NCBI GenBank assembly: GCA_946188345.1 | Contig: CAMHUI010000003.1 | Span: 1 to 64,000, forward strand | DNA: 64,000 nt | From: an uncultured Prevotellaceae bacterium | GTDB taxonomy: Bacteria > Bacteroidota > Bacteroidia > Bacteroidales > Bacteroidaceae | Direction: 5' to 3' | In this document: piece after piece, positions 4,775 to 51,420 of the stretch | Numbering within the stretch: the first letter of the stretch is position 1 | Layout of the letters: the number at the start of each line of letters is the position of its first letter | Notes under the pieces: generated by a model | Told to the model about the DNA's origin: nothing | Database searches by the model: none | The model's input: the letters and a program-made list of their open reading frames with translations, nothing else | Translations under genes and position numbers: made by a program

Positions 4775-6034
4775 ATGGCAACAAAAAAATCAGAAACCAT
4801 GAGCATGATCGATACGTTCCGCGAGTTTAAGGAAACGAAGAACATCGATCGTACTACGTTGGTGAGCGTGCTGGAAGAAAGCTTCCGCAACGTGCTCGCA
4901 AAGATTTATGGCAGCGACGAGAACTTCGATGTCATTGTGAATCCCGACAAGGGCGATTTTGAAATCTATCGTAACCGCATCGTCGTAGCCGACGGTGAGG
5001 TGGCCGACGAGAACAAGCAGATTGCGCTCTCTGAAGCCCAGAAGATTGAGCCCGATTACGAGATTGACGAGGAAGTGTCGGAGAGCGTCGACTTTGCCAA
5101 GTTCGGCCGTCGCGCCATCCTCAACCTGCGTCAGACGCTGGCATCCAAGATTCTCGAACTGGAGCATGACTCGCTGTACAACAAGTACAAGGACAGAGTC
5201 GGACAGATTACCTCCGGAGAGGTCTATCAGGTTTGGAAGCGCGAGGTGTTGCTCATCGACGACGAGGGCAACGAGCTGCTGCTGCCGAAGTCGGAGCAGA
5301 TTCCCAATGACCAGTACCACAAGGGTGAGACACTGCGCGCCGTCATCCTGCGCGTTGACAATGAGAACAACAATCCGAAGATTATTCTCTCGCGCACCAG
5401 CCCCACCTTCCTGGAGCGTCTTCTCGAAGCTGAGGTACCCGAAATCAACGACGGTCTCATCTCCATCAAAAAGATTGCCCGCATGCCGGGTGAGCGCGCC
5501 AAGATTGCTGTCGAGAGCTACGACGACCGCATCGACCCCGTAGGAGCCTGCGTCGGCGTGAAGGGCAGCCGCGTTCACGGCATCGTGCGCGAACTGAACA
5601 ACGAGAACATTGACGTCATCAACTACACCTCCAATGTGAAACTCTTCATCCAGCGCGCCCTCAGCCCAGCCCGCGTCTCCAGCATCAACATCAACGAGGA
5701 GGAGCGCAAGGCAGAGGTATTCCTGCAGCCTGAAGAAGTATCTCTCGCCATCGGTAAGGGCGGACTCAACATCAAGCTCGCCTCCATGCTTACAGAGTAT
5801 ACCATCGACGTCTTCCGCGAAATCGCTGAGAACGAGGATGAGGAAGATATCTACCTCGATGAGTTTGCCGACGAGGTTGACCAGTGGGTCATCGACGCCA
5901 TCAAGGCCATCGGACTTGACACCGCTAAGCAGGTCATCAACGCTCCACGCGAGATGCTGATTGAGCGTGCCGACCTCGAGGAGGAAACCGTCGACCAGCT
6001 GCTTGAGGTTCTCAAGGCAGAATTCGAGCAGTAA
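4775..6034 (+). CDS. nusA: Transcription termination/antitermination protein NusA
   Basis: S1/KH organisation; [48 protein letters not shown]. Confidence 0.96.
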
Positions 6035-6080
6035 GCCGACTATTCAACATTCAAAAGTAAAAAATCAAAAATCATCAAGA

Positions 6081-8894
6081 ATGAGCATCAGATTAAACAA
6101 AGCCATCAGTGAACTTAACATCGGACTCCAGACGGCAGTGGAGTTCCTGACGAAGAAATACGGATTGCCCGAAGACTCCCTCAGCCTGACTTCGAAGATT
6201 GACGACGAGCAGCATCAGTCACTCATTGAAGCCTTCAAGCAGGACAAGGAAGTGCGGTCGCAGGCCGAGAAACTCTTCCCCAAGAAGCCCAAGGAAAAGA
6301 AGCCCCAGGCCGAGCCCAAGGAGACAAGGGCCGAGAGCCTGCTCGGCTCCACGCCCCAACAGAAGTTCAATCCGTTGGGTAAGATAGACTTGGACACCCT
6401 TGGAAAGAAGCCTGCGCCGAAAGAGTCTGCTGCTCCCCAGCCCGAGCCAAAAGCCGAGCCCGAAACAAAGGCCGAGGCTGCTGCCGTCAGCCCCAAGCCC
6501 GAGACAACTGAGAAACCAAAGAAAGCAGAGAAGCCTGAAGCCACCGCTACAGTCGAGAAGAACGAACCTGTTGAGCAACCCGTGGCTGAAGAAAAACCTG
6601 TATCACCGGAGGTTTCTGAAAATTCCGAGCCCACTGAGCCCGCTGAGAGTTCTGAAGTCTTCCAGACCAAAAACGAGAAGAAGCTTCTCGCTACGCCCAA
6701 GGTGAACGTTCTGGGCAAGATAGACCTCGACTCGCTCAACCAGAGCACCCGTCCTAAGAAGAAGTCTAAGGAGGAGCGCCGCAAGGAGCGCGAGGAAAAA
6801 GCCCAGCAGTCGCGCGACGGCAAGAAGAAGCGCGAGCGCATCAACAAGGTGCGCGTCGACATCAATGCCGAGGCCAACCAGCCGCAGGGCAACCCCAACA
6901 AGGGCAGCAACGGTCCGAAAGGCGATGCCGGCGGCAAGAAAGATAAGAAAAAGAAGAATCGCGGACGCAATCAGAAGCCGCTCGAGGTAAACGAAGAGGA
7001 CGTGGCACGTCAGGTCAAGGAGACGTTGGCCCGACTCACCAACAAGCAGACCCAGAACAAGAAGGGTGCCAAATATCGCAAGGAGAAACGCGAAGCCGTT
7101 CAGGAGCGCCTCAACGAAGAGATGGCCGAACAGGCTGCAGAGAGCAAGACGCTGAAACTCACCGAATTCGTCACCGTCAGCGAGTTGGCCACGATGATGA
7201 ACGTCGGCGTCACGCAAGTCATCTCTACGCTTATGTCCGTCGGCATCATGGTCAGCATCAATCAGCGCCTCGACGCCGAGACCATCAACCTCGTAGCAGA
7301 CGAGTTTGGCTTCAAGACCGAATACGTCAGTGCTGAGGTGCAGGAAGCCGTCAGCGAGGAAGCCGACGATGAGAACGACCTCGTTCCGCGCGCACCGATA
7401 GTGACTGTCATGGGACACGTAGACCATGGTAAGACCTCACTTCTCGACTACATCCGCAAGACCAACGTCATCGCCGGTGAGGCCGGCGGCATCACTCAGC
7501 ACATCGGTGCCTACAACGTTAAACTCGAGGACGGCCGACGCATCACCTTCCTCGACACCCCGGGACACGAGGCCTTCACCGCCATGCGAGCCCGTGGAAC
7601 ACAGGTTACCGACATCGCCATCATCATTGTCGCTGCCGACGACTCCGTGATGCCCACCACCAAAGAGGCCATCGCCCACGCACAGGCGGCCAACGTGCCC
7701 ATGGTGTTCGCCATTAATAAGATAGACAAACCCGGAGCCAACCCCGACAAGATACGCGAAGACCTCGCCCAGATGAACCTTCTCGTAGAGGAGTGGGGTG
7801 GAAAATACCAATGTCAGGAAATCTCCGCTAAAAAAGGCCAGGGCGTCAGCGAACTGCTCGAGAAAGTACTCCTCGAAGCCGAGATGCTCGACCTGAAAGC
7901 CAACCCCAACCGCAAGGCCACAGGTAGCATCATCGAGTCCTCGCTTGACAAGGGTCGCGGCTATGTCTCCACGGTGCTCGTCTCCAACGGCACGCTGCGC
8001 GTCGGCGACAACGTCATCGCCGGAACCGCCTGGGGACGCATCAAGGCCATGTTCAACGAGCGCAACCAGCGCATCACCGAAGCCCGTCCAGCCGAACCCG
8101 TCATCATACTTGGACTCAACGGAGCACCCACTGCCGGCGACACCTTCCACGTCCTCGACACCGAGCAGGAAGCACGCGAGATAGCCAACAAGCGCCTCCA
8201 GCTGCAGCGCGAACAGGGGCTGCGCACTCAGAAGCGACTCACCCTCAGCGATATCTCACACCGCATCGCACTCGGATCCTTCAAGGAACTCAACATCATC
8301 GTCAAGGGCGACACCGACGGCTCCATCGAAGCCCTCAGCGACTCCTTCATCAAACTCTCAACCGAGAAAATCAAGGTCAACGTCATCTACAAGGCAGTCG
8401 GACAAATCTCCGAGAGCGATGTCACCCTGGCTGATGCTTCCGACGCACTCATCGTAGGCTTCCAGGTGCGCCCCTCAGGAGCCGCCCGCAAGCTGGCCGA
8501 CAACGAAGGTGTGGAAATCAACACCTACTCCGTCATCTACGATGCCATCGACGACGTGAAGTCGGCCATGGAAGGCATGCTCGACAAGGTGAAGAAGGAA
8601 GTCGTCACCGGACAGGTGGAAGTCCGCCAGGTCTTCAAGATTTCCAAGGTAGGCACCGTAGCCGGAGCCATCGTCACCGAAGGCAAGGTGCACAACAAAG
8701 ACAAGGCCCGCGTCATCCGCGACGGCATCGTCGTCCACACAGCACCCATCGGAGCACTCAAACGCTATAAAGACGACGTCAAGGAGGTTGCCACCGGCTT
8801 CGAGTGCGGTATCTCACTCTCCAACTACAACGACATCCTTGAAGGCGACATCCTCGAGACCTTCACCGAGATAGAAGTACAGCAGACCCTCTAA
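6081..8894 (+). CDS. infB: Translation initiation factor IF-2
   Basis: [25 protein letters not shown]...[34 protein letters not shown]; start at [17 protein letters not shown]. Confidence 0.97.
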
Positions 8895-8902
8895 CCCCCC
8901 CA

Positions 8903-8980
8903 AAAAGTGAAAAGTGAAAAACGAAAAGTAAAATAACCGCATCCCGCGACGACTTTTCATTATTCACTTTTCACTTCCCA
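8903..8980. repeat. Inverted pair of 7-bp-period A-rich/T-rich arrays (AAAAGTG-type / CTTTTCA-type)
   Basis: AAAAGTG AAAAGTG AAAAACG AAAAGTA ... CTTTTCA TTATTCA CTTTTCA CTTCCCA; arms pair 23/25. Confidence 0.75.
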
Positions 8981-10917: not shown

Positions 10918-11564
10918 CAATGGAAATCCCCAATGACAACACGCAACGGCTCCTGGAAATGCTGGAGAACCCTCAGGCATACAACGAACAGGAAATCGGC
11001 GAAATCATCAGCCACGACGAAGCCACCTACCATCTCCTGACCGAGGTAAGGCAGAGCTTTCGTCAGCAAGACTCGACCGACATCGATGCTGCTTGGAAAA
11101 GCTTTTGTAAAAAGAGGGACGAGCGGAGAGCTGCCAGGCAGCCACACCATCGTCAGTTCCGCAAGATGGTCGCCGCCTTCATCTCATTAATATGTATCTC
11201 AGGCATCACATTTGCCGCCATTCAGATTGTTCACCGCCAATCAACCAAGTCGCCAGCCATCCAGCCCGCAGACGTGGTGGAGGCAAAACCCGTAGAGTCA
11301 CAGCCCGATACCCTCACCCTCTCTCCAAAAGAAGGCACGGACAACGACAGCAGGACCTTCGACAATATAGCCTTTGAAATCATGCTGACAGAGATAGCCA
11401 GCCACTACGGCGCAGACGTAGTCTTCGAGAACGAGACTGTCAAGCCGCTGCGCTTCTACTTCGTATGGTATCCCGGGCAACCAATGGAAAAGGTCGTCGA
11501 GACCCTCAACCATTTCGATAGCATTAACATCGTCATCGACAACAATAAGCTGATTGTGAAATGA
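10914..11564 (+). CDS. Membrane-anchored DUF4974/FecR C-terminal-like protein (putative anti-sigma)
   Basis: ATGA overlap with the sigma gene; single TM segment; C-terminal IMLTEIASHYGADVVFENETVKPLRFYF...VETLNHFDSINIVIDNNKLIVK resembles DUF4974. Confidence 0.75.
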   Translation: MTMEIPNDNTQRLLEMLENPQAYNEQEIGEIISHDEATYHLLTEVRQSFRQQDSTDIDAAWKSFCKKRDERRAARQPHHRQFRKMVAAFISLICISGITFAAIQIVHRQSTKSPAIQPADVVEAKPVESQPDTLTLSPKEGTDNDSRTFDNIAFEIMLTEIASHYGADVVFENETVKPLRFYFVWYPGQPMEKVVETLNHFDSINIVIDNNKLIVK

Positions 11565-14221
11565 GACGTATCACCCACCTGCTCCCAATCCTTCTCACCG
11601 CCATTACCCTACCGTCAACAGCCCAGCGCATCACCCGCAGCTACGACAACATATCCATAGCTAAAGCCCTGCGGCAACTCAATGAAGAGACAGACCAATA
11701 CACCATTCATTTCCTCTACGACGAGCTGGAAGACTTCCGCGTGACAACTACCGTAAAAGGCAAGTCCCTACCCGAAGCCGTCAGGCAGATGATTGGTTTC
11801 TACCCCATCCGCATGACCATTGTCACAGACCAGAACTCGGAAGCTCCGGGAAAACAGCGACAGCAGATCATCGTAGAATGTACCCATAAGACCGACATCC
11901 ACCTGACTGGTACCGTCGTCGACGAGCACGGGCTGCCTGTGGCCTATGCCAACATCTCCCTTTTCCTTCCAGCCGACACCACCCTGCTCAGCGGTGGCGT
12001 ATCCAACGAGAGCGGCTACTTCGCCATCCCCTATGAAACACCCATCAGCTCTCAACCCTCAACACTAAACTCTCAGCACTCAACTCTAAACTCTCATGAA
12101 GGCGTGCTGGCCCGCATCTCCTGCATAGGCTATAAGACTATCTGGCGACGATTCCTGCAGCCCGATGCCGGCACCATCCGAATGAGCTCCCATACCTATA
12201 CCATCAACGGCACGGTGGTGCAGGGCGAACGGCCGAAGGTACAGCTCCAAGGCAACTCCCTCATCATGAACGTAGAAGGAACCATCATGGAACGGCTTGG
12301 GACAGCAGAAGACATCCTCTCGCGAGTGCCCACCATCACAAAGAAAAGAGATGGCTATGAAATTTTAGGTAAAGGATCTCCGCTCATCTACGTAAACAAC
12401 CGCAAGCTGACCGAGCTGACCGAGCTGCGCAATATCCCTTCAGACAACATCCGCAACGTCGAAGTGGTTCAGAACCCTGGTGCCCGCTACGATGCCTCAG
12501 TCAATGCCGTCATCATCATCCACACCAAAAGGGCTGCCGGAGAAGGTCTCGGCGTAGAAATGAACTCATGGAGCCGCAAGGGACATGGCGTTGCCAACAA
12601 TGAGCGGGTCAATCTGACTTACCGAAGAGGAAACCTGGAATTATTTGCAAACCTTTTTGGAGCTTACAACAAACGCTTGGAGAAAGGCGAGTTTGAACAA
12701 ACTGTCTATGCAGACACGCTGTGGCAAATAGCCAACAAGCAAAAAGACAACATCTACAATCCATTCCTTGAAGGCCGCTTCGGATTCAACTACCAACTGA
12801 ACGACCAAAACTCTTTTGGCGGGTTCTATCAGAACACCTACGACTACGTGAAGACTTGGAGCAGCAACGACGACATCCTGCAAGCCAACGGCTCCCTGTA
12901 TGACCGTTTGCAGAACAGCAGTGTCAACAGGGCCAAAGGTGCGCCAAAGCATCAGGCAAATATCTACTACACGGGTAAGGTTGGGAAATTCGGCATCGAC
13001 TTCAATGCCGACTATACCTATCGTGATCAGCAGAATCGCAACCGGCAACAAGAACTGAGCGACGCGCATGAAGACCGCAACGAGAACACCTATGCCCATA
13101 CACGCAGCAGGATGGTGGCAGAGAAACTCTTCGTGACGCATCCTATAGGGAAAGGGCAGTTAGAAATAGGAGAGGAATATACCAATACCCGATGGAACAG
13201 CAGTTTCGAAAATGTAGAGGGTTACATCCTTGGCGGCAACAACGAGCAGCATGAGCAGGCCATAGCTCCCTTTGTTGAACTGCGTCAGCAGATGGGCCGC
13301 CTACGGCTGGCTGCCGGTATGCGCTATGAGCATGTGACGTCGGAATACTTTGTCAGCCACATCCGGCGCGACGACCAGTGCCGGAGCTATGATGAATTCT
13401 TTCCTTCGGCATCCTTGTCTGCTTCTGTAAAGAATCTGCAGTTTTCCTTCAGCTATGCCAAACGTACCAAGCGCCCCAGCTACTGGCAGCTGAGCAGCGA
13501 TGTCATCTACGAGAACCGGCTCAACCGACAGACGGGCAATCCCTTCCTGAAACCTGTCAAATACCATAACGTAAGCTCAATGACCATGTGGAGGTGGCTC
13601 TATTTCAATGTCAGCTTCACCCACTGCGTCGACCCCATCCTCTATACGGCAGAAAGTATTCCAGAAGACTCGAAGGTGAATCTTGTAACCTACAGGAACT
13701 ACGACCACGCCGACTGGATCATCATGACGCTGGGAGCTCAAAAGAGCATCAAATTAGGACATGAGGCCTCATGGACACCACAGTACAATGTCTCGCTCAT
13801 GAAGCCCTGGTTAAAGGCGGCGTTCCTGGACGGACAGAAAAGCTTCAACAAGCCCATGCTGTCGCTGCAGTTGGGCAATAGCGTCATGCTCAAGCACGAC
13901 TGGCTGCTGCAAGCCGACTTCAACGTGCATTCTCATGGCTGTACAGGGGCTAATGCCGTATCAGCATGTACCAACCCTTTGCTCACTCTCAGCGTCAGCA
14001 AAGAGTTCTGCAGACAGCGGCTTCATGTCAAGTTAGCTGCTGAAGACGTCTTCAATGGCGGCATCGGACGGTTTACACTTTACAGCAACCGATTCGTGTT
14101 TCGCAAGACCGAGGACAGCGATTCCCGCTGCGTGACGCTCTCCCTGCGCTACCGATTCAATGTCACCCCGTCGAAATATCGCGGTACGGGTGCCGGTAAT
14201 GCAGAAAAGAGCAGGCTATGA
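11561..14221 (+). CDS. Outer-membrane beta-barrel receptor with STN-like and CarboxypepD_reg-like N-terminal domains
   Basis: ATGA overlap with upstream gene; STN-like N-terminus, LTGTVVDEHGLPVAYANISL, plug-like region, barrel ending LSLRYRF. Confidence 0.85.
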   Translation: MRRITHLLPILLTAITLPSTAQRITRSYDNISIAKALRQLNEETDQYTIHFLYDELEDFRVTTTVKGKSLPEAVRQMIGFYPIRMTIVTDQNSEAPGKQRQQIIVECTHKTDIHLTGTVVDEHGLPVAYANISLFLPADTTLLSGGVSNESGYFAIPYETPISSQPSTLNSQHSTLNSHEGVLARISCIGYKTIWRRFLQPDAGTIRMSSHTYTINGTVVQGERPKVQLQGNSLIMNVEGTIMERLGTAEDILSRVPTITKKRDGYEILGKGSPLIYVNNRKLTELTELRNIPSDNIRNVEVVQNPGARYDASVNAVIIIHTKRAAGEGLGVEMNSWSRKGHGVANNERVNLTYRRGNLELFANLFGAYNKRLEKGEFEQTVYADTLWQIANKQKDNIYNPFLEGRFGFNYQLNDQNSFGGFYQNTYDYVKTWSSNDDILQANGSLYDRLQNSSVNRAKGAPKHQANIYYTGKVGKFGIDFNADYTYRDQQNRNRQQELSDAHEDRNENTYAHTRSRMVAEKLFVTHPIGKGQLEIGEEYTNTRWNSSFENVEGYILGGNNEQHEQAIAPFVELRQQMGRLRLAAGMRYEHVTSEYFVSHIRRDDQCRSYDEFFPSASLSASVKNLQFSFSYAKRTKRPSYWQLSSDVIYENRLNRQTGNPFLKPVKYHNVSSMTMWRWLYFNVSFTHCVDPILYTAESIPEDSKVNLVTYRNYDHADWIIMTLGAQKSIKLGHEASWTPQYNVSLMKPWLKAAFLDGQKSFNKPMLSLQLGNSVMLKHDWLLQADFNVHSHGCTGANAVSACTNPLLTLSVSKEFCRQRLHVKLAAEDVFNGGIGRFTLYSNRFVFRKTEDSDSRCVTLSLRYRFNVTPSKYRGTGAGNAEKSRL
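12049..12097. repeat. Intragenic heptamer array, 7 contiguous units
   Basis: CTCTCAA CCCTCAA CACTAAA CTCTCAG CACTCAA CTCTAAA CTCTCAT; encodes SQPSTLNSQHSTLNSH. Confidence 0.9.
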
Positions 14222-14270
14222 ATGTTGATTCCGCCCTTTAAGAGTTGAGAAATGTTGGGAGACAATAAAA

Positions 14271-14406: not shown

Positions 14407-14441
14407 CTCTCAACTCTAAACTCTCAACTCTAAACTCTCAC
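14407..14441. repeat. Heptamer array, 5 units
   Basis: CTCTCAA CTCTAAA CTCTCAA CTCTAAA CTCTCAC, 6 bp from the stop codon of the GH43 gene. Confidence 0.9.
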
Positions 14442-14447
14442 CATCCA

Positions 14448-17400
14448 CTACTTTCTGATGACTTTCTCGGTGTGGACTCCGGTACGGCTGCGCACTGTGA
14501 CGAGATACATACCCTGCGGCTGGGCGTAGAGGCTGACGGTTGCCTCGCCGGTGGCGCGGCCTTCGGCGACGGGAGTGCCCTGAAGGCTGACTACCTGATA
14601 GCTGAAGGGCTGTCCGAGGGTGTGAGTGATGGTGAGCTGGTCGCTGACGAGGTGTGGCCCGACAACGACTGCTTCGTCTCCTAGGGTATCTGATGTAGTG
14701 GGTTGCTGGATTCCGGTTTTGTATTGCTCTCCGATGAGGGGGCAAGGGCTCTCGACGGTGGGCTTCTGGTCGCGCACGTAGGGCCATCCGTCGCGGTCCC
14801 AGTGTATCTGGGAGAGGTAGGTTTTGCGTCCGCCGTCTACGTTGCTGGCGTCGTAGCCATGATAGAGCATCCACCACTGTCCGGCGTCGTCTTGCACGAA
14901 GTTGGCGTTGTGGCCGGGGGCAATGACTTCTGCTGAGCGATAGAGCAGATTTGAGAAGTTGTTGTTGATGGCCGGGCCACCGGTCTTACTGACGTAGGGT
15001 CCGAATAGTTTCTCTGAGCGTGCCATGACGAGGTGGTAGGATGACTTCTCGCCGTCGCAGCAGCTGCCTGCAGAGCCAATGAGGTAGTAGTAGCCATCGT
15101 GGGGAATGATGTAAGTTCCCTCGGTCAGTGTGCCAGCTATCTTCTGCGGCTTGGCTCCCTCGGCCACGGCCATGCCGTCGTCAGTGAGTTCGATACCATA
15201 GATGCCCCGGAAGGAGCCCCAGAAGAGGTATTTCTTGCCGCCATCCTCGATGGCGAAAGGGTCGATGGAGTTCTGGACGCCAATCTCTCTGGAGATGAAG
15301 AGCTTGGTAGTGTTGCGATAGGGTCCTTGTGCCCTGCTGGCAGTGGCTACACCGATGCCGCAGTCCCACTCGCCGCCCCAGGTGGACATGGAGAAATAGA
15401 GATAGTATTTTCCGTTGAAATACTCCACGTCGGGCGCCCAGATGGCTGCGTCCTTGACGAAGCTGGGTCGGGTGGCGTCGGTGAAGGCTGTGGTGACCCG
15501 GTTCCAGTCGACGAGGTTGGCCGAGCGGTAGACGGGTACATTGTGGATGACTTCTGTTGAGAAGAGGTAGTAGTAGCCGTCGGTGGAGCGTATGACAGTG
15601 GGGTCGGGGCAATCGCGGTTGATGACGGGTCCGCCGTAGGAGCAGCCTTCCGCGTTGGTGGTGGCATCGCTGAGTGTGGGCATGGCGGGGTCGAGGGGCT
15701 GTGCGCTACTGGTCTTGAGGGTGAAGGTCTGAGTGGCGAAGGTGGAGCCTTGCAACCGGGCGTTGACGGCCTGCACACCGCAGGTATAGCTGCCGTTGGG
15801 CAGTGTGAGGGTGACGCGTCTGGCGCCCGCAGCGTTGCCGGGCTGCAGCACCTTGCGCTGACCGTCGCGGGTACCGCCGACGTAGGCGTTGCCGCCGGCC
15901 ACGAGGCGACCGGTCTTCTCGTCACGGACAAAATATTCGTAGGTGACGTTTTTATTGCTTGCTGCTGGGCTTGACCACTCGAAGGTTACTTGGCTGCCGT
16001 TGATGGCTGCGAGACGCAGGCTGGGCTGGGCCGGCCGTTCGGTGGCTGAGGAGGGATTGACTGTCGCCACGAGCGTGTTGGTCAATCCGCTAGTGGCAAA
16101 GAAGGTGTCGTCGTCGGTGCGCCCTATCATAACGTAGTCGGGCGTACCATCGGCGTTCCAGTCGAGAGGCACGGTGCAGCCCTCTGAGTAGCCGGGCAGC
16201 CGATAAGCATTGGTGAAGGTGCCGTCGCCGCGGCCTAGGCTGATGAAGGTGGTCTGGGTGTTCTGGCTGGTTGACCATCCGGCGTTGACGATGTCGTAGA
16301 GGCCGTCGCCGTCCCAGTCGAGGGCGAGGTATTGGGTGGCGGTGGAGTTCTGGTTGCGCATCTCCTCGATGCCTTCATGGCCGAGGTCGGTGAGAAGGTA
16401 GTTGCCCTGTTCGTCGATACGGCCGGCATAGACTCCCCAGCGATAGTTCTGGCGACCGTTGCCGGTCCAACCTGAATAGAAGATGTCGGCGATGCCGTCG
16501 CCCGTGAAGTCGGCAATGGCGATGCCCCCCTCGCTCATGGGCTCAAACACCACGTCGCGGTTCTGATAGATCATCTGTCGGCGGAAGTGGCCGGGATGGG
16601 CGGGGTCGTTGAGGAAGAGGTCGGAGAAGTGGGAAGAGACACCGATGCGCACGCCCATTACGGAGCGATCGTCCGACTGGGCATTGACGAAGAAGTCGGT
16701 GTAGCCGTCGTTGTTGAAGTCGTAGGCCTGCACCTGTCCTTGCTGGAGGTGGAACTCCTTTCCGTCCTGACCATAGTCCTTGACATAGTTGTCGGAGAAG
16801 AATCGCGACACCTCAAAGACGCCATTGCCGCGGTTGAGAAGTACGACGTTGGCCGTAGGATAGCTCTTGGAGTTGGAGCCTTTCTTCTGATAGCCTATGC
16901 CCACGATGTCGGGCAGTCCGTCGTTGTTGAAGTCGGCCACGTCGGCAGAAATGATGACCCGCTCGTCGAAGTCGACAGCGTTGCCGTCGGCATCAACGAA
17001 GGTAAGCACAGCCTGCGAGAAGGTGCCGTCGCCACAGCCCAGGAAGACGCCCTCACGGCTGATATGGTCGAGGAAGGGCTGTCCCTCTGACTCGAAGCCG
17101 GCAGTCTCAAAGGCCACGATGTCCATGAGGCCGTCCTGATTGATGTCGCAGGGTGAGAAGCTGGGGCGGTCGGTGCAGTTGATGTTCAGTCCGGGGTCGA
17201 AATAGGTCTCGCCGTAGAAGTTGTTGATGCTCCACGACTTCGAGGCTTTATTATACTTCATGACGTGGACGGTGCGGTTGCGTTCGTAGTCGCTGGTGCC
17301 AGTCTGGTTGGTGTTGACATTTCCGGAACCTCCGTAGAGGAGTTCGCAGATTCCGTCGCCTGTGAGGTCGACGGCGACGCCTGATGAGAAGGAGGCACCT

Positions 17401-17510
17401 GCCGAAGTCCACTCCTTGGCGTAGTCAAGATTGGTCTGAGCGCTGCTGACGGCCGGAGAAAAAAGGAACGCGGCAAGCAGCAAAAGGGATGAAGAGATAA
17501 TTTGTTTCAT
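14448..17510 (-). CDS. Secreted FG-GAP/VCBS-repeat + GH43-like glycosidase with T9SS-type tail
   Basis: FG-GAP-like repeats (DINQDGLMDIV, DFNNDGLPDIVGIG, DWDGDGLYDIV); GH43-like 'NRDCPDPTVIRSTDGYYYLFST...IWAPDVEYFNGKYYLYFS...IDPFAIEDGGKKYLFWGSF'; C-terminal sorting-like tail. Confidence 0.85.
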   Translation of the reverse strand: MKQIISSSLLLLAAFLFSPAVSSAQTNLDYAKEWTSAGASFSSGVAVDLTGDGICELLYGGSGNVNTNQTGTSDYERNRTVHVMKYNKASKSWSINNFYGETYFDPGLNINCTDRPSFSPCDINQDGLMDIVAFETAGFESEGQPFLDHISREGVFLGCGDGTFSQAVLTFVDADGNAVDFDERVIISADVADFNNDGLPDIVGIGYQKKGSNSKSYPTANVVLLNRGNGVFEVSRFFSDNYVKDYGQDGKEFHLQQGQVQAYDFNNDGYTDFFVNAQSDDRSVMGVRIGVSSHFSDLFLNDPAHPGHFRRQMIYQNRDVVFEPMSEGGIAIADFTGDGIADIFYSGWTGNGRQNYRWGVYAGRIDEQGNYLLTDLGHEGIEEMRNQNSTATQYLALDWDGDGLYDIVNAGWSTSQNTQTTFISLGRGDGTFTNAYRLPGYSEGCTVPLDWNADGTPDYVMIGRTDDDTFFATSGLTNTLVATVNPSSATERPAQPSLRLAAINGSQVTFEWSSPAASNKNVTYEYFVRDEKTGRLVAGGNAYVGGTRDGQRKVLQPGNAAGARRVTLTLPNGSYTCGVQAVNARLQGSTFATQTFTLKTSSAQPLDPAMPTLSDATTNAEGCSYGGPVINRDCPDPTVIRSTDGYYYLFSTEVIHNVPVYRSANLVDWNRVTTAFTDATRPSFVKDAAIWAPDVEYFNGKYYLYFSMSTWGGEWDCGIGVATASRAQGPYRNTTKLFISREIGVQNSIDPFAIEDGGKKYLFWGSFRGIYGIELTDDGMAVAEGAKPQKIAGTLTEGTYIIPHDGYYYLIGSAGSCCDGEKSSYHLVMARSEKLFGPYVSKTGGPAINNNFSNLLYRSAEVIAPGHNANFVQDDAGQWWMLYHGYDASNVDGGRKTYLSQIHWDRDGWPYVRDQKPTVESPCPLIGEQYKTGIQQPTTSDTLGDEAVVVGPHLVSDQLTITHTLGQPFSYQVVSLQGTPVAEGRATGEATVSLYAQPQGMYLVTVRSRTGVHTEKVIRK

Positions 17511-17566
17511 GTTGAGAGTTGAGGGTTTAGGGTTTAGAGTTTAGAGTTTAGGGTTGAGAGTTGGGA
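17511..17566. repeat. Heptamer array, 8 units, filling the sufD-GH43 intergenic space
   Basis: GTTGAGA GTTGAGG GTTTAGG GTTTAGA GTTTAGA GTTTAGG GTTGAGA GTTGGGA. Confidence 0.93.
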
Positions 17567-17568
17567 GT

Positions 17569-18915
17569 TTATCTGCACAGCTTGCAGCCCTTGCAGGTGT
17601 TGAGTTCGCCTCGGAAGCGCTTGTCGACGAGGTAGTGCAGCCGGTCGCGCAGCTGCGGCAGCTGTATCTGGTCGATGACTTCCTTGACGAAGGCCTCCTG
17701 GAGGAGCAGATAGGCTTCCTGCCGGGAGATACCTCGCTGCTGCATGTAGAAGAGGGCGGCATCGTTGAGTTGGCCCACGGTGCTGCCATGGGAGCACTTC
17801 ACGTCGTCAGCATAGATCTCAAGCATTGGCTGGGTATACATGCGTGCCTCATTGCTGACGCAGAGGTTCTGATTGCGCATCTCAGATGCCGTCTGCTGGG
17901 CATCGGGCTCCACCAGCACGCGGCCTGCAAAAGCACCCGTGGCCTGGTTGTTCAGGATGTATTTATAGAGTTCATTGCTCGTGCAGTGGGGAACGGCATG
18001 GGTGATGAGGGTGTTGTTGTCGACGTGCTGCTGCTTGTCGGCGATGACGCAGCCGTTGCAGGTGCACTCGGCCCCCTCGCCGCGCATGACGAGGTTGAGC
18101 TGGTTGCGCGTGGTGCCGTTGTGCAGCGTCAGCACGTTGTGGTGGACGTGGCTGTCGCGCTGCTGCTCGATATAGACATTGCTCACGCGTACATTCTTAT
18201 AATGGGTTTCCTCCAGGGAGTATAGTTCCAGGGAAGCCCCCTGGCCCACAAAGACTTCCATGACTTCGGTGGTAAGGAAGCTGACGTCGTCGGCAGCATG
18301 GTCGCAGAAGAGCATCTTCAGCGAGGCGCCTTCCTCCAGCACGATGAGCACGCGTCGGTTGGCCATGAGGCCTGCCGAGGGCGACTTCAGGATGTTGATG
18401 ACCTGGATGGTCTTCTCTACCTTGACGCCTCGCGGCACATAGACGAAGAGCCCGTCTTGTGCCAGCATCGTGTTCAGCTGGGTCACGCCGTCGGCAGCCT
18501 CACCTGCAAGCCGGTGGTAGAGGCCTTCGGCCTGGTGGACATGCTGTGCCAACGACCCTACCACGACACCCTCGGGCAGCTGCCGATGGTCGGTCTCCTG
18601 ATAGAAGCTGTCGTTGACCATGAAATAGAGTGCTGTCGAGAGATTGGGTACGTCGCATCGGAAGGCCTCATAGGGGTTCACAGGGATGTTCAGGCGCCGC
18701 AGGTTCAGTCCATAGTCTGGCTCGAAGAGCTTGCCGACGTTGGTGTAGCGGTAGCGCTCCACCTTGCGTGTCGGGAATCCCTGCTGGCGGAACTGCTCAA
18801 AGGCGGCATCACGGCAACGGTTCATCACACCGCAAGAATGGTCGCACAGTGTTGCCCGCTCCTGTTCGTAGAGGTCTATGTATTGCTGCTCAGGACTCAA
18901 TTTCTCACTTCTCAT
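17569..18915 (-). CDS. sufD: Fe-S cluster assembly protein SufD
   Basis: SufD-like sequence (ALYFMVNDSFYQETDHRQLPEGVVVGSLAQ; CSHGSTVGQLNDAALFYMQQRGISRQEAYLLLQEAFVKEVI) adjacent to sufC/sufB. Confidence 0.93.
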   Translation of the reverse strand: MRSEKLSPEQQYIDLYEQERATLCDHSCGVMNRCRDAAFEQFRQQGFPTRKVERYRYTNVGKLFEPDYGLNLRRLNIPVNPYEAFRCDVPNLSTALYFMVNDSFYQETDHRQLPEGVVVGSLAQHVHQAEGLYHRLAGEAADGVTQLNTMLAQDGLFVYVPRGVKVEKTIQVINILKSPSAGLMANRRVLIVLEEGASLKMLFCDHAADDVSFLTTEVMEVFVGQGASLELYSLEETHYKNVRVSNVYIEQQRDSHVHHNVLTLHNGTTRNQLNLVMRGEGAECTCNGCVIADKQQHVDNNTLITHAVPHCTSNELYKYILNNQATGAFAGRVLVEPDAQQTASEMRNQNLCVSNEARMYTQPMLEIYADDVKCSHGSTVGQLNDAALFYMQQRGISRQEAYLLLQEAFVKEVIDQIQLPQLRDRLHYLVDKRFRGELNTCKGCKLCR

Positions 18916-18929
18916 TGCTCATTCCTCAT
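18902..18929. repeat. 7-bp-period array spanning the sufC stop / sufD start junction
   Basis: TTCTCAC TTCTCAT TGCTCAT TCCTCAT. Confidence 0.6.
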
Positions 18930-19680
18930 TTAGGGCGTAGCCCTCCTTTATCCAGTCGTAGCCACGCGTCTCAATCTCCTTGGCCAGTTCGGGGCCGGCG
19001 GTCTTGACGATGCGGCCCTGATAGAGCACGTGGACCACGTCGGGACGTATCATGTCGAGCAGTCGCTCGTAGTGCGTAATGACGATAATCGAAGTGTCGG
19101 GTGTATGGAGTTTGTTTACTCCGTCGGCCACGATGCGCATGGCATCGACGTCCAGACCAGAGTCCGTCTCGTCGAGGATAGCCAGCTTAGGTTCGAGCAT
19201 CGCCATCTGAAAAATTTCGTTGCGCTTCTTCTCACCGCCGCTGAAGCCTTCGTTCACCGAACGGCCCGAGAGCTTGGCGTCGAGGTCTACTATCTTCCGT
19301 TTCTCGCGCATCAGCTTCAGAAACTCTGCAGCGTTCAGGGGCTCCAGCCCTTCATACTTACGCTTTTCGTTAACGGCCGCCTTCATGAAGTTCGTCATCG
19401 ACACACCGGGAATCTCCACGGGGTACTGGAACGAGAGGAACAGCCCCTCGTGGGCGCGGTCTTCGGGCTTCATCTCGAGCAGGTTTTTGCCGTTGAACCA
19501 AGCCTCGCCCGCGGTCACTTCGTAGAGCGGGTTACCCGTCAGCACAGCCGAGAGCGTAGACTTGCCGCTGCCGTTAGGACCCATGATGGCGTGCGTCTCA
19601 CCGTCGCGAATGGTGAGGTCTATGCCCTTCAATATCTCTTTGCCTGCAATCGTGGCATGTAAGCCTTTAACTTCTAACAT
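18919..19680 (-). CDS. sufC: Fe-S cluster assembly ATPase SufC
   Basis: HAIMGPNGSGKSTLSAVLTG Walker A; EGFSGGEKKRNEIFQMAMLEPKLAILDETDSGLDVDA. Confidence 0.97.
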   Translation of the reverse strand: MLEVKGLHATIAGKEILKGIDLTIRDGETHAIMGPNGSGKSTLSAVLTGNPLYEVTAGEAWFNGKNLLEMKPEDRAHEGLFLSFQYPVEIPGVSMTNFMKAAVNEKRKYEGLEPLNAAEFLKLMREKRKIVDLDAKLSGRSVNEGFSGGEKKRNEIFQMAMLEPKLAILDETDSGLDVDAMRIVADGVNKLHTPDTSIIVITHYERLLDMIRPDVVHVLYQGRIVKTAGPELAKEIETRGYDWIKEGYALNEE

Positions 19681-19729
19681 TTATCTTTTTCCTTTTTTTA
19701 TTTTCGCATGTGTATAGGAATAGCTTGCC

Positions 19730-21217
19730 TCATCCCACTGTTCCTTCCAGCGAGACGCTGAGCAGCTTCTGAGCCTCAACGGCAAACTCCATGGGCAGTT
19801 TGTTGAGCACGTCCTTGGCATAGCCGTTGACGATGAGCCCCACTGCCTGCTCTGTGGGGATGCCGCGCTGGTTGCAGTAGAACAGCTGGTCCTCGGAGAT
19901 CTTCGACGTCGTTGCCTCGTGCTCGACGATGGCCGACGGATTGTGGATGTCCATGTAGGGGAAGGTATGTGCGCCGCACTTCGAGCCCAGCAGCAGCGAG
20001 TCGCAAGATGAGTAGTTGCGGGCGTTGTCGGCTGTCGATGTGGCTCGCACCAGTCCTCTATAGGAGTTCTGCGAGTGGCCGGCTGATATGCCTTTCGAGA
20101 TGATGGTCGAGCGGGTGTTCCGCCCCATGTGAATCATCTTTGTTCCGGTGTCGGCCTCCTGATAGTTGTTCGTCACGGCCACGGAGTAGAACTCAGCTAC
20201 GCTGTTGTCGCCGCGCAGGATGCATGAGGGATACTTCCACGTGATGGCGCTGCCCGTCTCTACCTGCGTCCATGAGAGCTTCGAGCCCTCGCCACGCAGG
20301 TCGCCGCGCTTCGTCACAAGGTTCAGCACACCGCCGCGGCCCTGCTCGTCGCCCGGGTACCAGTTCTGCACCGTGGAGTATTTTACCTCCGCACGGTTCA
20401 TGACGATGATTTCGACGATGGCCGCATGCAACTGGTTCTCGTCGCGCATCGGGGCCGTGCAGCCCTCCAGATAGCTCACGTAGCTGTCGTCGTCGGCCAC
20501 GATGAGCGTTCGCTCAAACTGTCCCGTATTGCGGGCGTTGATGCGGAAGTACGACGAGAGTTCCATTGGGCAACGCACGCCCTTCGGGATATATACAAAC
20601 GAGCCATCGGAAAAGACCGCCGAGTTCAAGGCGGCATAGAAGTTGTCGCGATAGGGCACCACCGACCCCAGATACTGCCGCACCAGGTCCGGATGCTCCT
20701 TCACGGCCTCGCCGATGGAGCAGAAGATGACACCCTTCTCGCGCAGCTTCTCCTTGAACGTCGTCTTCACCGAGACGGAGTCCATGATGGCGTCGACGGC
20801 AGTGTTGCCGCTCAGCGCCAGCCGCTCCTCCAAGGGAATGCCCAGCTTGTCGAACGTCTTCTCCAGTTCAGGGTCTATGCTCCCGCTTGCGCCCTCCTTG
20901 GATGGGCGTTGGGAGGTAGGGTCGGCATAGTAAGAGATGGCCTGATAGTCGATGGGCGGCAGGTGCACGTGGCCCCACGACGGCTGCTCCATCGTCAGCC
21001 AATGGCGGAAAGCCTGCAGACGGAACTCCAGCAACCACTCCGGCTCTCCCTTCTTCTGAGAGATAAGCCTGACCACGTCCTCGTTCAGTCCGCGCTCAAT
21101 GATGTCGGTATGCACGTCGGTAGTGAAGCCGAACTCATATTTCTGCTCGGCAATCCGGCGTACCAGCTCATTGTCGCTCTGAGGCTCCTGCTGCTTCTTG
21201 TCTTTCCTCTCTGCCAT
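19730..21217 (-). CDS. sufB: Fe-S cluster assembly protein SufB
   Basis: [67 protein letters not shown]. Confidence 0.97.
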
Positions 21218-36294: not shown

Positions 36295-36321
36295 GGGTGA
36301 GGGGTTAGGGCTTAGGGTCAA
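36295..36321. repeat. Degenerate heptamer array (3-4 units)
   Basis: GTGAGGG GTTAGGG CTTAGGG TCAACGG. Confidence 0.45.
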
Positions 36322-36350: not shown

Positions 36351-36413
36351 TTTTCTCGCCATGGCAGAGTGTAAGTAAGCTAACTCTGCTCATTTGGCTG
36401 AACGGAAACATTG
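36351..36413 (+). repeat. Dispersed repeat (GCTCTGCTCATCTGGCTTAACG family), copy overlapping the 3' end of the HTCS gene
   Basis: TTCTCGCCATGGCAGAGTGTAAGTAAGCTAACTCTGCTCATTTGGCTGAACGGAAACATTG; compare 50113-50176. Confidence 0.7.
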
Positions 36414-39400
36414 ATATACTCCGTCGGGCTTACTCCCATCTGCTTCTTGAAGGCCTTCGAGAAGTAACTCGGGTCGGAGAAGCCGGTGCGATAGGCTGTC
36501 TCTGAGACATTGTAGCCCTCGCGCAGGAACTGGCAGGCCAGGTAGAGGCGGCGCTTGCGGATATAGTCGCCCATCGACATGCCGGTAAGGCTCTTCATCT
36601 TGGTATGTAGCAGTGAGCGGCTGATGGCCAGCTGGCTGGTGATGTCGGCAATAGCGAAGTCGCTGTCAGCGATATGTTGCTCGATGACTTCGTTGAGCTG
36701 GCGGATGAACGTCTTGTCTATCTCGCTGAGCAGGGTGGTGTGATGAAAGTTGAGAGTTGAGAGTTGAGGGTTGAGAGTTGAGGGTTGAGGGTTGGGGGCT
36801 GAGGGTGAAGAGTTAAGAGTCGAGGGTTGAGAGTTGAGGGCTGACGGAACATCAAGCTCGTCGACGATTTCCTGCTGACGGGTTTGCAACAGTTGCATGA
36901 TGTTGTTCACCTGGAGTTCGAGTATCTGGGGATCGAAGGGCTTGGAGACATAGGCCTCGGCACCGCTCTTATAGCCTATGGCCACATCGTCTTGCTCGCT
37001 CTTGGCCGTGAGCAGGATGACGGGGATATGGGAGGTGTGGACATCGCCCTTCAGCTGCCGGCAGAGTTCTATGCCGTCCATCTCGGGCATCATCACGTCG
37101 CTGACGACCATCTGCACAGCCTCAGTACGGGCTATCTCAAGCGCCTCGCGCCCGTTGCTGGCCGTCAGGACGGTGTACTTAGAGGAGAAATAATTGGACA
37201 GGAAGTCGAGCAGGTCGCGGTTGTCGTCGACGATGAGCAGCGTACCTGGTGTGGGGCTCTGTGTGGTGGGTGTGGAGTGCCGGGTGTTGAACTCGTCGAT
37301 ATCGCTCAGGGTCGACGAGAACTTATATTCACTCAGGGGCACGATGGTCTTGTCTTCATTCAGATAGCTGGCTGTCGGGAATGCTGAGTCGGACACATTG
37401 AGCCACACCGTGAACTTGGCTCCATGGCCTGGCTCACTCTCCACACTGACGCGACCCTTGTGAATCTCGCTGAGACGCTGCACCAGAGAGAGACCGATGC
37501 CCCAGCCACTGTTGTCGGCATTGTAGCCGCGCTTGGTCTGATAGTAGTGGTTGAAGATGCGACCCTGTTCTTCCTTGGCGATGCCGATGCCTGTGTCCTG
37601 AACGGAGAGACAGAGATAGGCTGCATTGGGGGAGGTAGGTGAGGGGGCAGACGTGGACTCGGTGATGCTGCCTTTCACCATGATGCGGCCACCACTGGGG
37701 GTGAACTTCATGGCGTTGGACAGCAGGTTACTGACGATATGCTCAACATAGGAAGGCGAGAACCACACTTCCTCTCCGTTGTCTTCAAACTCCGAGGTCA
37801 GCGTCAGGCCTCGCTCGCCGGCCATCTCGTGGTAGGGATAGAGTATCATCTCGATGAACTGCAGGGGGTTGCCCTTCTGAACGTAGAAGGGGAAGCTGTC
37901 GGTCTCGACTTTGTTGAAGGTGACGAGCTCGTTGATGAGGCTCTCCATCTTGCGTGTGTTCTTGATGGCCATGTCGAGATGGCGGTTGGAACTTTCGTCG
38001 AGTTGCTGACGGGAAATGCTTCTCAGCGGTGCCACGATGAGCGACAGAGGCGTCTTCAGCTCATGGGATATATTAGTAAAGAAGTCGAACTTTGCCTTGT
38101 CGATGGCTTCAATCTTGTCGCGCTCCATGTTGGCCTCACGCACTGCGCTGCGCTCCTTTTCGCGGATGGAGAAGAGCCGATAGGCCACATAGGCCAGTGC
38201 GCACAGCAGAAGCAGATACAGCAGATAGGCGGGTTTGGAACGATAGAAGGGTGGCTGCACCACGATGCGGAGCGCCTTTACCGGACAGTCGTCCCAGCCT
38301 TCGTTGGCATCGTTGGCACGAAGGAACAGCTGATAGGTCCCGGGCGGCAGCTTGTAGCCCGTGAACTTTCGCTCGCTGCCCACATTACGCCAATCCTTGT
38401 CGATGCCGTCGAGGCGCACCTGATACTCGATGCTGGTGGTGTTGCCCGGCATGATGACACCATACTCGATGCTGAACAGCCGCGCCTGGTCGTAGCTCAG
38501 CGTCAGCGACTGGGTCTCGTCAAACTCACCCTTCAACGGCGAACCTTCTACGGAGGCCGTCATCTCCTGATTGTTCACCAGCAGATGCTTCAGATGGACC
38601 GTCAACGGACCTTTCCTGCTCGACAGCGTCAAGGGGTTGAACGAAATCATACCATTCACCGTTCCGAACGTCAGCAGGCTGTCGCTGGTAGCCAGGGCCG
38701 ATGAGAAGTTGAACTGATTGGTGGGCAGACCGCTCTCCGTGGTATAACGCATCAGCGTCTCCGTGTCCATGGAGTACTGATAGAGGCCCTGACTGGTGCT
38801 CACCCAGAGACGACCCTTCACATCGCTGATGATGCTGCACACCGTGATATGCGGCAGGAGCATGTCGCTCTCAATAGACTCAAATGAATCCTTCTCTAAG
38901 TCCATATACTGCAGGCCGCAGTTGTTGGTACCTATCCAGAGACGGTTGCTACCTGGCTGCCGATAAAGGCTGGTGACATAGTTGTCGCGCAGCCCGCCGG
39001 CAGCCTTCTGCCAATAAGTGATGCGGTTGTCGGCTGAGGCAATCCGGTAGAGGCCATATTGGCACATGCCCACCCAGAGGTTATCCTCAGCATCGACAAA
39101 GAGCGTATAGACAAACTGATTGTCGAGCGTATTGTCGCCCAGCATCTTGAACTGGTCCGTCTCCCCATCGTAGTAGTAGAGCCCCTTGGTCGTGGCAAAC
39201 CACAGCCGTCCATTCTGCTGACAGGCAATACTGAAGAAAGAGTTGCTCTTCAGTCCGTTGGTGAAGTTATAGCGTCGAGCAGCCCCGGTGCGGAGGTTAT
39301 AGCGGAAGAGTCCGCTTCGGAAGGTGCCAATCCACATCTCTCCCCGGCTACGGTCGTAGTAGAGGCTGTGGACATTCGTTCCCAGCTGGGGCAGCCTGTC

Positions 39401-40531
39401 GAAGAGCGTCACCGTGCCGGCCTGGCGATTGTAGATGTTCAAACCGCCGTCCTCTGTGGCAATCCAGAACACACCAGGCTCAGTCTCTACCATCTGCCGA
39501 GGCACCTTGCCGTGAATCTGCCCACCTTGCAGGCCTGGCTCCAACCACTGGAACTGCTTGTTGTTGCTCAGCAACACGTCCACTCCACCAAAGTAGGAAC
39601 CTATCCAGATATTATCGTCTACATCGCTGATGATGGAATAGATGGCATTGTCACTCAGGCGATAGGGGTCGTCAAACCGATGGCGCACAATCTCGATGTG
39701 TCCGTCAGGATGGACGATAGTCACGCCCTTCTCCGTTCCCAGCCAGATGCGCTGCTGGGCATCCTCGGCTATGACGCGAACGATGCCGTTGGAGATCATC
39801 GCCGGTGAGAGCACTTCCACCCTGCCGTGGCCGTCCATCGTCATCACACCTTCGCCGTTGCGGCCCAGCCACAAACGCCCCTGAGAGTCGTAGAAGATGG
39901 GCAGGATGTCGTCCGTGCCCGTCAAGAAGTCGGGTTGCAGGATTGCATCAAGCGATGTCACACGCGTGAGGGCAGCATCATAGCAGAACACCGAGCGATT
40001 GGTCGCTACATAGACGTTGTCGGCATCATCGACCGTCATCGATGCAACGAAATAGCCCGATGTAGACTCCTGAGAACGGAAACAGTCGGCCTGCTCGTCA
40101 TATACCCATAGTCCCATGCCGCCGCAAATGATGCGCCCGGAATGTTGCTGCACCACAGAATTGACGATGCCGCCCGTATCGTAGGAACGGAAGTCGTCGG
40201 TTTCAGGCCTGTACCGACAGATGCCACGCTGGGTGCATACCCAGATGCGCCCGTTGCCATCGACAAAGAGCCGTATCACGAAGTTGTGGTTGAGCGAGCA
40301 GCTGTCGGCATCCTCATGGAAATAGCTTCTGATGTCATAGCCGTCGTAGCGGGCCAGACCATTACGGGTGCCCATCCAGATGTTGCCCTTGGCATCCTGT
40401 GCCAAGGCCTCCACCTGCTGATGGGGCAGGCCGTCGCTGCTCGCTATATGCCGAAACCGGTAGTTGACGCTCCAAGAGAGCAGCCAACAACAACACAGCA
40501 ACACTGTCAGACCAAAACGCTTCACGCTCAT
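36380..40531 (-). CDS. Hybrid two-component system regulator (HTCS: propeller sensor, Y_Y_Y, HisKA, HATPase, REC, AraC HTH)
   Basis: Reg_prop-like repeats (GNIWMGTRNGLARYDGY, GRIWVCTQRGICRY); FTNISHELKTPLSLIVAPL; GWGIGLSLVQRLSEIHKG; LLIVDDNRDLLDFL...VSDVMMPEMDGIELC; AraC HTH at C-terminus. Confidence 0.96.
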   Translation of the reverse strand: MSVKRFGLTVLLCCCWLLSWSVNYRFRHIASSDGLPHQQVEALAQDAKGNIWMGTRNGLARYDGYDIRSYFHEDADSCSLNHNFVIRLFVDGNGRIWVCTQRGICRYRPETDDFRSYDTGGIVNSVVQQHSGRIICGGMGLWVYDEQADCFRSQESTSGYFVASMTVDDADNVYVATNRSVFCYDAALTRVTSLDAILQPDFLTGTDDILPIFYDSQGRLWLGRNGEGVMTMDGHGRVEVLSPAMISNGIVRVIAEDAQQRIWLGTEKGVTIVHPDGHIEIVRHRFDDPYRLSDNAIYSIISDVDDNIWIGSYFGGVDVLLSNNKQFQWLEPGLQGGQIHGKVPRQMVETEPGVFWIATEDGGLNIYNRQAGTVTLFDRLPQLGTNVHSLYYDRSRGEMWIGTFRSGLFRYNLRTGAARRYNFTNGLKSNSFFSIACQQNGRLWFATTKGLYYYDGETDQFKMLGDNTLDNQFVYTLFVDAEDNLWVGMCQYGLYRIASADNRITYWQKAAGGLRDNYVTSLYRQPGSNRLWIGTNNCGLQYMDLEKDSFESIESDMLLPHITVCSIISDVKGRLWVSTSQGLYQYSMDTETLMRYTTESGLPTNQFNFSSALATSDSLLTFGTVNGMISFNPLTLSSRKGPLTVHLKHLLVNNQEMTASVEGSPLKGEFDETQSLTLSYDQARLFSIEYGVIMPGNTTSIEYQVRLDGIDKDWRNVGSERKFTGYKLPPGTYQLFLRANDANEGWDDCPVKALRIVVQPPFYRSKPAYLLYLLLLCALAYVAYRLFSIREKERSAVREANMERDKIEAIDKAKFDFFTNISHELKTPLSLIVAPLRSISRQQLDESSNRHLDMAIKNTRKMESLINELVTFNKVETDSFPFYVQKGNPLQFIEMILYPYHEMAGERGLTLTSEFEDNGEEVWFSPSYVEHIVSNLLSNAMKFTPSGGRIMVKGSITESTSAPSPTSPNAAYLCLSVQDTGIGIAKEEQGRIFNHYYQTKRGYNADNSGWGIGLSLVQRLSEIHKGRVSVESEPGHGAKFTVWLNVSDSAFPTASYLNEDKTIVPLSEYKFSSTLSDIDEFNTRHSTPTTQSPTPGTLLIVDDNRDLLDFLSNYFSSKYTVLTASNGREALEIARTEAVQMVVSDVMMPEMDGIELCRQLKGDVHTSHIPVILLTAKSEQDDVAIGYKSGAEAYVSKPFDPQILELQVNNIMQLLQTRQQEIVDELDVPSALNSQPSTLNSSPSAPNPQPSTLNPQLSTLNFHHTTLLSEIDKTFIRQLNEVIEQHIADSDFAIADITSQLAISRSLLHTKMKSLTGMSMGDYIRKRRLYLACQFLREGYNVSETAYRTGFSDPSYFSKAFKKQMGVSPTEYINVSVQPNEQS
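36749..36839. repeat. Intragenic heptamer array, 13 contiguous units (GTTGAGA/GTTGAGG)
   Basis: Encodes SALNSQPSTLNSSPSAPNPQPSTLNPQLSTLN between the REC and AraC HTH parts of the HTCS. Confidence 0.95.
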
Positions 40532-40540
40532 ATCCCTCTA

Positions 40541-40575
40541 CTCTAAACACTAAACCCTAAACTCTAACCTCTAAC
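40541..40575. repeat. Heptamer array, 5 units
   Basis: CTCTAAA CACTAAA CCCTAAA CTCTAAC CTCTAAC, between the HTCS start (40531) and the next gene's stop (40581). Confidence 0.88.
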
Positions 40576-51371: not shown

Positions 51372-51420
51372 CACTAAACTCTAAACTCTAAACTCTAAAC
51401 TTTCAACTCTAAACTCTAAA
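51372..51420. repeat. Heptamer array, 7 units, next to the SusD stop codon
   Basis: CACTAAA CTCTAAA CTCTAAA CTCTAAA CTTTCAA CTCTAAA CTCTAAA. Confidence 0.93.

Follow-up and report, generated by a model that had tools for sequence, protein, structure and literature searches.

How does one seven-letter motif come to stand in tandem between, and even within, so many genes of a single gut-type bacterium, and does it serve any purpose there? The question is raised by arrays of the heptanucleotide CYCTMAA in the window, the whole 64-kb stretch of DNA analysed here, which is part of contig C3 of genome G000 (1.96 Mb, 57% complete). The original prediction listed six such arrays as uninterrupted members of one family, dispersed across gene junctions of a Bacteroidales-like genome and resembling in form the cyanobacterial STRR repeats. 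All six are found where it placed them, within a few bases, and the single family, its host and its STRR-like form are borne out. The description as uninterrupted does not hold for 36750-36840, which has one break, nor for 40534-40575, which is degenerate with two perfect units. Dispersal across gene junctions is true of four of the six, which lie in spacers, while the arrays at 12049-12097 and 36750-36840 are intragenic and in frame. The period-7 features of the window are as follows.

8903-8976, unstranded: inverted heptamer pair, AAAAGTG x4.4 at 8903-8933 and ACTTTTC x3.6 at 8952-8976, after ORF 5961-8894 (plus)
12049-12097, plus strand: intragenic array of 7 units (CTCTCAACCCTCAACACTAAACTCTCAGCACTCAACTCTAAACTCTCAT), in frame in the gene of an outer-membrane barrel protein (ORF 11561-14221, plus), translated SSQPSTLNSQHSTLNSH
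14407-14441, plus strand: intergenic array of 5 units with convergent genes on either side; ORF 14448-17510 (minus) has its stop 6 bp away
17512-17567, minus strand: intergenic array of 8 units that takes up the junction between sufD (17569-18915, minus) and a GH43/FG-GAP gene (14448-17510, minus)
18900-18931, plus strand: degenerate period-7 array of TTCTCAY/TGCTCAT/TCCTCAT, which covers the beginning of the sufD ORF (17569-18915, minus) and a few bases before it
36295-36317, plus strand: short degenerate period-7 array of GGGTTAG, 3.3 copies, intergenic
36750-36840, minus strand: intragenic array interrupted once, one block having 8 units and the other 4, in frame in the gene of a hybrid two-component regulator (ORF 36380-40531, minus)
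40534-40575, plus strand: intergenic array of 6 degenerate units between ORF 36380-40531 (minus) and ORF 40581-42422 (minus)
51372-51420, plus strand: intergenic array of 7 units; a SusD-like gene (51423-53111, minus) has its stop 2 bp away

Two of these, the inverted pair AAAAGTG/CACTTTT and the degenerate TTCTCAT array at 18900-18931, were absent from the earlier list, and the pair shows that the 7-bp period is not bound to CYCTMAA. The GGGTTAG array is possibly a decayed relative of the CYCTMAA family. A single inverted partial unit (GAGTTGAGA) lies near 14243, by the array at 14407-14441, and the array of the two-component regulator forms the linker between its receiver (residues 1099-1205) and its AraC-type DNA-binding domain (from residue 1299). 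At 17512-17567 the CTCTCAA strand leads directly into the ATG of the GH43/FG-GAP gene. That gene is downstream of sufD, with the array occupying the junction; upstream of sufD are two ORFs of 253 and 495 aa, sufC- and sufB-like by length (all three genes within 17569-21217).

Chance does not produce such arrays. When a block is defined as at least three head-to-tail units with at most one mismatch per unit and at least two perfect units, in the window and the simulations alike, the window holds seven CYCTMAA blocks against none in 60 order-1 and 60 order-3 Markov simulations; the shuffled control on which the prediction had staked its refutation thus yields no arrays. Further arrays exist elsewhere in the genome, so that its other refuting condition does not hold either: a two-unit pattern search gives about 21 loci in G000, 15 of them on contigs C3 and C8, which make up 8% of the sequence. 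All whole-genome counts rest on pattern searches, for which a reversed-pattern control is not clean, as CTCTCAA reversed is a rotation of itself. In G000, 15/22 arrays are intergenic although only 11.7% of the sequence is non-coding, and 7/22 are in frame within genes, three of these in mfd. In the relative G010 (2.5 Mb, 99% complete) all 24 of 24 are intergenic, and most arrays lie within about 115 kb (C3:1.60-1.715 Mb). Since this genome is assembled in three contigs, the arrays are not an artefact of fragmented assembly. The 1.98-Mb contig C3 of G010 shows several sign changes of GC skew, with a cumulative minimum at about 1.63-1.66 Mb, inside the array cluster. An explanation of the clustering by a replication terminus or origin gave nothing firm: the cluster does span a skew minimum, but the contig has several skew turns.

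What governs the position of an array relative to genes? The prediction had placed the intergenic arrays close to start or stop codons. This is true in the window, but the part concerning stops is confounded, because one strand of the array itself supplies stop codons. On the TTGAGAG or TTTAGAG strand each frame runs into TGA or TAG before 21 bp are passed, and CTCTCAA is stop-free, which explains why CTCTMAA is the coding strand in 70/71 intragenic arrays (from four genomes plus 120 stretches from other taxa, among the matches listed), where the stop-free orientation is translated as a peptide of the LSTLNSQ type. In the other orientation the arrays' own stops end reading frames, and arrays lying next to a stop are therefore partly automatic. 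An orientation rule at stop codons was accordingly dropped: the bias of 71:26 falls to 34:26 (p = 0.37) once abutting arrays are excluded. Counting only arrays 4-80 bp away, stops show a TTGA:CTCT ratio of 34:26 and starts one of 27:31. Because genes were called as longest ORFs, with no trained gene finder, start-codon distances hold only approximately. In part, then, the boundary rule is an artefact, although arrays are strongly enriched between genes.

The arrays within genes allow a closer look. A match to mfd is present in 120/120 genus genomes searched, and the mfd gene on contig C8 of G000 carries three arrays. In aligned Mfd orthologues the arrays fall in length-variable loops. One such loop, before the conserved IVTYPDAL, holds a CTCTCAA array in G000 and G065, CCTCAAM in G008 and CTCCACA in G118, and an unrelated short sequence without an array in most other orthologues. 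Arrays have thus appeared recurrently in one loop, and their presence or absence differs between species in this species-level comparison. From the alignment, the pattern fits recurrent gain at a permissive place, with shared descent possible for species pairs. In wecB on contig C4 the array lies in the segment linking two aligned halves, which has about 36 residues compared with about 13 in E. coli WecB (1f6d). The wecB of G000 (L035:9333-10553) also has a second insert, SLSLGEGWGEA, of about 12 residues relative to the same E. coli protein, which looks like a translated REP-like GGGAG element. As a step of plus or minus 7 within mfd or the regulator gene would break the frame, intragenic arrays could act as phase-variation repeats.

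Across the genus it is the 7-bp period, not the motif, that is constant. Among exact periodic runs of any unit, period 7 leads by far (11 in the array contigs of G000, 24 in the G010 cluster, 22 in G008). Markov controls contain no period-7 runs and other periods reach a few at most in the real sequence; TRF concurs with the period-7 excess. Most 7-bp arrays of G008 are made of other units (AAAATTG, AAGATTG, AAACATT, AACTGTG), and the families AAAATTG and AAGATTG are prominent in this genome only, unit families being particular to the single genome. Between 78 and 88% of units are identical to those of another locus in the same genome, against 3-9% for random intergenic 7-mers, and in four array-rich genomes 81-100% of loci have units free of C on one strand, against 30-46% of intergenic 7-mers. 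In G000 and G008 CYCTMAA varies mainly at positions 2 and 5; in G010 more of the variation falls at positions 1 and 7. Units vary from locus to locus. Inside the arrays they are grouped in higher-order blocks of 14 and 21 bp, and the higher-order pattern is individual to each array.

Other repeats are seen alongside. In G008 a 30-bp dispersed sequence, CGCTCCAACTTGTTGGCTTGCCAGAGCAAG, has about 18 copies in 171 kb (loci L231-L235, L237 and L260, for example L232:8942-8970 and L234:16835-16863). It is often nested in heptamer arrays of various units, with the array resuming across it at YTC^AA, and also occurs in frame within genes, translated PLQLVGLPEQ; it is absent from the 64-kb window. Tandem arrays of 22 bp are the second commonest class in G000 (15 in 417 kb, for example L228:3079-3162), which also contains the dispersed repeats CAGACTTTTGGTACAAAAGTCATGACGA and TTATTGCTGTCCGGTAAAAACGGCCTGAAGGGCCA, nine copies each. 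At L034:6615-6863 an 83-bp unit stands three times in tandem, with a CGCCCCGAAGGGGC hairpin.

We consider it probable that the arrays are heptanucleotide simple sequence repeats shaped by replication slippage, occasional spread between loci and a selection filter. Slippage in steps of 7 nt, and in multiples such as 14 and 21, would create and resize the arrays, and the 14- and 21-bp blocks fit such multi-unit slips. Loops of 7 nt would escape mismatch repair, which deals with loops no larger than about 4 nt. Units would occasionally seed new loci within the same genome through some copying route; such spread fits the excess of shared units among loci of the same genome and the prominence of certain families in G008 only. 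Selection would then purge arrays that break genes, leaving survivors in spacers and flexible protein loops, and within genes almost only in the stop-free orientation. Most copies would have no selected function. Side effects are conceivable: inverted pairs after stops are predicted to form strong hairpins and could terminate transcription, arrays in leaders would give unstructured RNA, and an effect as terminator or leader is plausible from the structure models.

Could the arrays instead be regulatory sites? They might be targets of a heptad-binding protein on mRNA or DNA, as proposed for the TAACTGA repeats of Beggiatoaceae, or selected 3'-end or leader elements. The strong intergenic enrichment in G000 and G010 argues for this, as does the confinement of motif variation mainly to positions 2 and 5 in G000 and G008. 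So do two predicted RNA structures: an inverted array pair at the convergent luxS/OMP junction, with a U-rich tail at its end, has a folding energy of -81 kcal/mol (z -12.9), and the RNA of the array at 17512-17567 is fully unstructured directly before the ATG. Yet the neighbouring genes are varied and have no common theme (sufD, GH43, SusD, luxS, mfd, wecB, tktA-like, dnaJ), orientation is balanced (36:35 at starts, thus no preference, and 26:34 at non-abutting stops), most species of the genus have no arrays, and many arrays lie within coding sequence. We regard it as rather unlikely that the arrays are regulatory sites. A quadruplex function is unlikely too, as a G3+ motif fits only 1/23 arrays in G000, 0/29 in G010 and 0/35 in a third genome.

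Slippage alone does not account for three features: the recurrence of the same CYCTMAA variants in distant families and phyla, units nearly always free of C on one strand, and the clustering on two contigs of G000 and in about 115 kb of G010. A different proposal is that genomes of the order run an active, 7-nt-selective process, which might be inherent in the replisome or be a mode of copying not yet described. It would make C-free/G-free heptamer arrays and carry units already present in a genome to further loci, among them permissive loops in conserved housekeeping proteins, with the arrays hosting other small dispersed repeats. We hold this to be unlikely.

It is quite improbable that a small mobile element of MITE- or REP-like type, of which the arrays would be parts or arms, carries them to new sites. 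Inverted array pairs 70-130 bp apart do exist, and several arrays of G010 (contig C3 at 1.59-1.71 Mb and 1.898 Mb; L041, L042, L045, L046, L050) share a GGACGGGCAA-like boundary before the array, several of them holding inner 9-bp CTAGGAATA repeats; judged by their sequences, these arrays appear to make up the outer arms in a dispersed element of composite build. Many arrays, however, are single and unpaired, units differ by locus and the higher-order pattern is unique to each array. No shared flanking sequence beyond the arrays was found in G000 or G035. In G000 no 10-mer of the 80-bp flanks is common to more than 2/21 arrays, and a carrier element is rejected there; composite flanks are confined to G010.

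Very improbable, in our view, is that fast evolution or a mutator state under relaxed selection is all that sets array-rich lineages apart. Long branches lead to four of five array-rich tips in an Mfd tree, whose sample is biased by the two richest species added by hand, but the RpoB of array-rich genomes is no less similar to a sequence from outside the genus (identity G035 84%, G018, G096 and G121 83%, G000 81%, G010 80%, in a range of 79-85% for full-length matches) and gives the idea no support.

That a reverse transcriptase or telomerase-like enzyme writes the arrays from a short RNA template is hardly credible: the few unit variants, as from a template, and the telomere-like G-rich strand (TTTAGGG, TTGAGGG, TTTAGAG) speak for it, but unrelated heptamers have the same period, many array-free genomes have RVT_1, and at least seven array-rich genomes (G008, 90% complete, G018, G035, 94%, G121, G140, G205 and G404, 98%) have no RVT_1 match, which largely refutes an RVT_1-type maker, a diverged polymerase being conceivable. 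Some units equal the plant telomere unit, which the prediction put down to chance, and this looks coincidental, several array-rich genomes having no detectable RVT_1 reverse transcriptase.

The arrays have published parallels. The CYCTMAA family fits the known kind of heptameric simple sequence repeats, with a different motif: its 7-nt unit extends beyond chance length at many, mostly intergenic loci (15/22). According to Rehm et al. (2015, PMC4692102), Xanthomonas GGGAATC and Nostoc GGGGA(C/T)T repeats occupy well over a hundred loci per genome, about 90% of them intergenic for GGGAATC. These arrays often lie within 50 bp of a stop with the G-bearing strand coding, some as inverted pairs, and vary in length among related species. 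The 7-nt unit, the few variants and the anatomy are shared, whereas those repeats form quadruplexes and have another motif; the CYCTMAA arrays rarely fit a G3+ quadruplex and are often in frame within genes, and relatives carry several heptamer families. Direct repeats of TAACTGA are described by MacGregor (2015, PMC4679880) from Beggiatoaceae, some Cyanobacteria and five Bacteroidetes, with little variation and mostly just upstream of start codons in one orientation. They too are many-locus, mostly intergenic heptamer arrays, patchy over distant phyla and already known in a few Bacteroidetes, but differ in motif and from the balanced orientation of CYCTMAA at starts (36:35). With the cyanobacterial STRR, dispersed heptanucleotide arrays for which PMC4692102 cites Calothrix, the likeness is in form only; the CYCTMAA motif and the Bacteroidales-like host, of another phylum, set the present family apart. 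The survey of Mrazek et al. (2007), as quoted in PMC4679880 and PMC4692102, gives 7 nt as the commonest long unit length in most genomes surveyed and proposes polymerase slippage as the origin of long simple sequence repeats; the quoted parts do not name Bacteroidales among the repeat-rich groups and do not mention in-frame nesting in conserved proteins such as Mfd. Six exact unit strings had no match in the limited collection of literature searched. Three traits are less expected for the known kind: arrays nested in frame in housekeeping genes, genomes that each hold several families of heptamers, and a bias towards C-free units.

How widely is the family spread? Three perfect units in a row occur in 76/200 sampled genomes of the genus and in 12/247 genomes across the order, where several array-bearing genomes from other families hold multi-locus sets of the same CYCTMAA variants. 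Among the matches listed, the named genomes are largely Prevotella and other Bacteroidales of rumen and gut, and Fibrobacterota, Planctomycetota, Verrucomicrobiota, Cyanobacteria and Clostridia also appear. Gene content and the named matches elsewhere suggest that the genus of G000 is Prevotella-like. In the Mfd tree array-rich species are scattered, with 4 changes against a shuffled mean of 4.1 in that hand-supplemented sample.

For annotation these observations carry two warnings: peptides of the LSTLNSQ type in these proteins are translated DNA repeats, and an array beside a stop codon can arise from the repeat's own stops. In many bacteria no long simple repeat is commoner than the heptamer, and the number seven calls for an explanation. 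Here the genus offers a natural experiment, with species that have arrays and species that do not, and with several unrelated heptamers per genome that keep to one period. The arrays within conserved proteins, whose orthologues display the empty state, are part of the same experiment.
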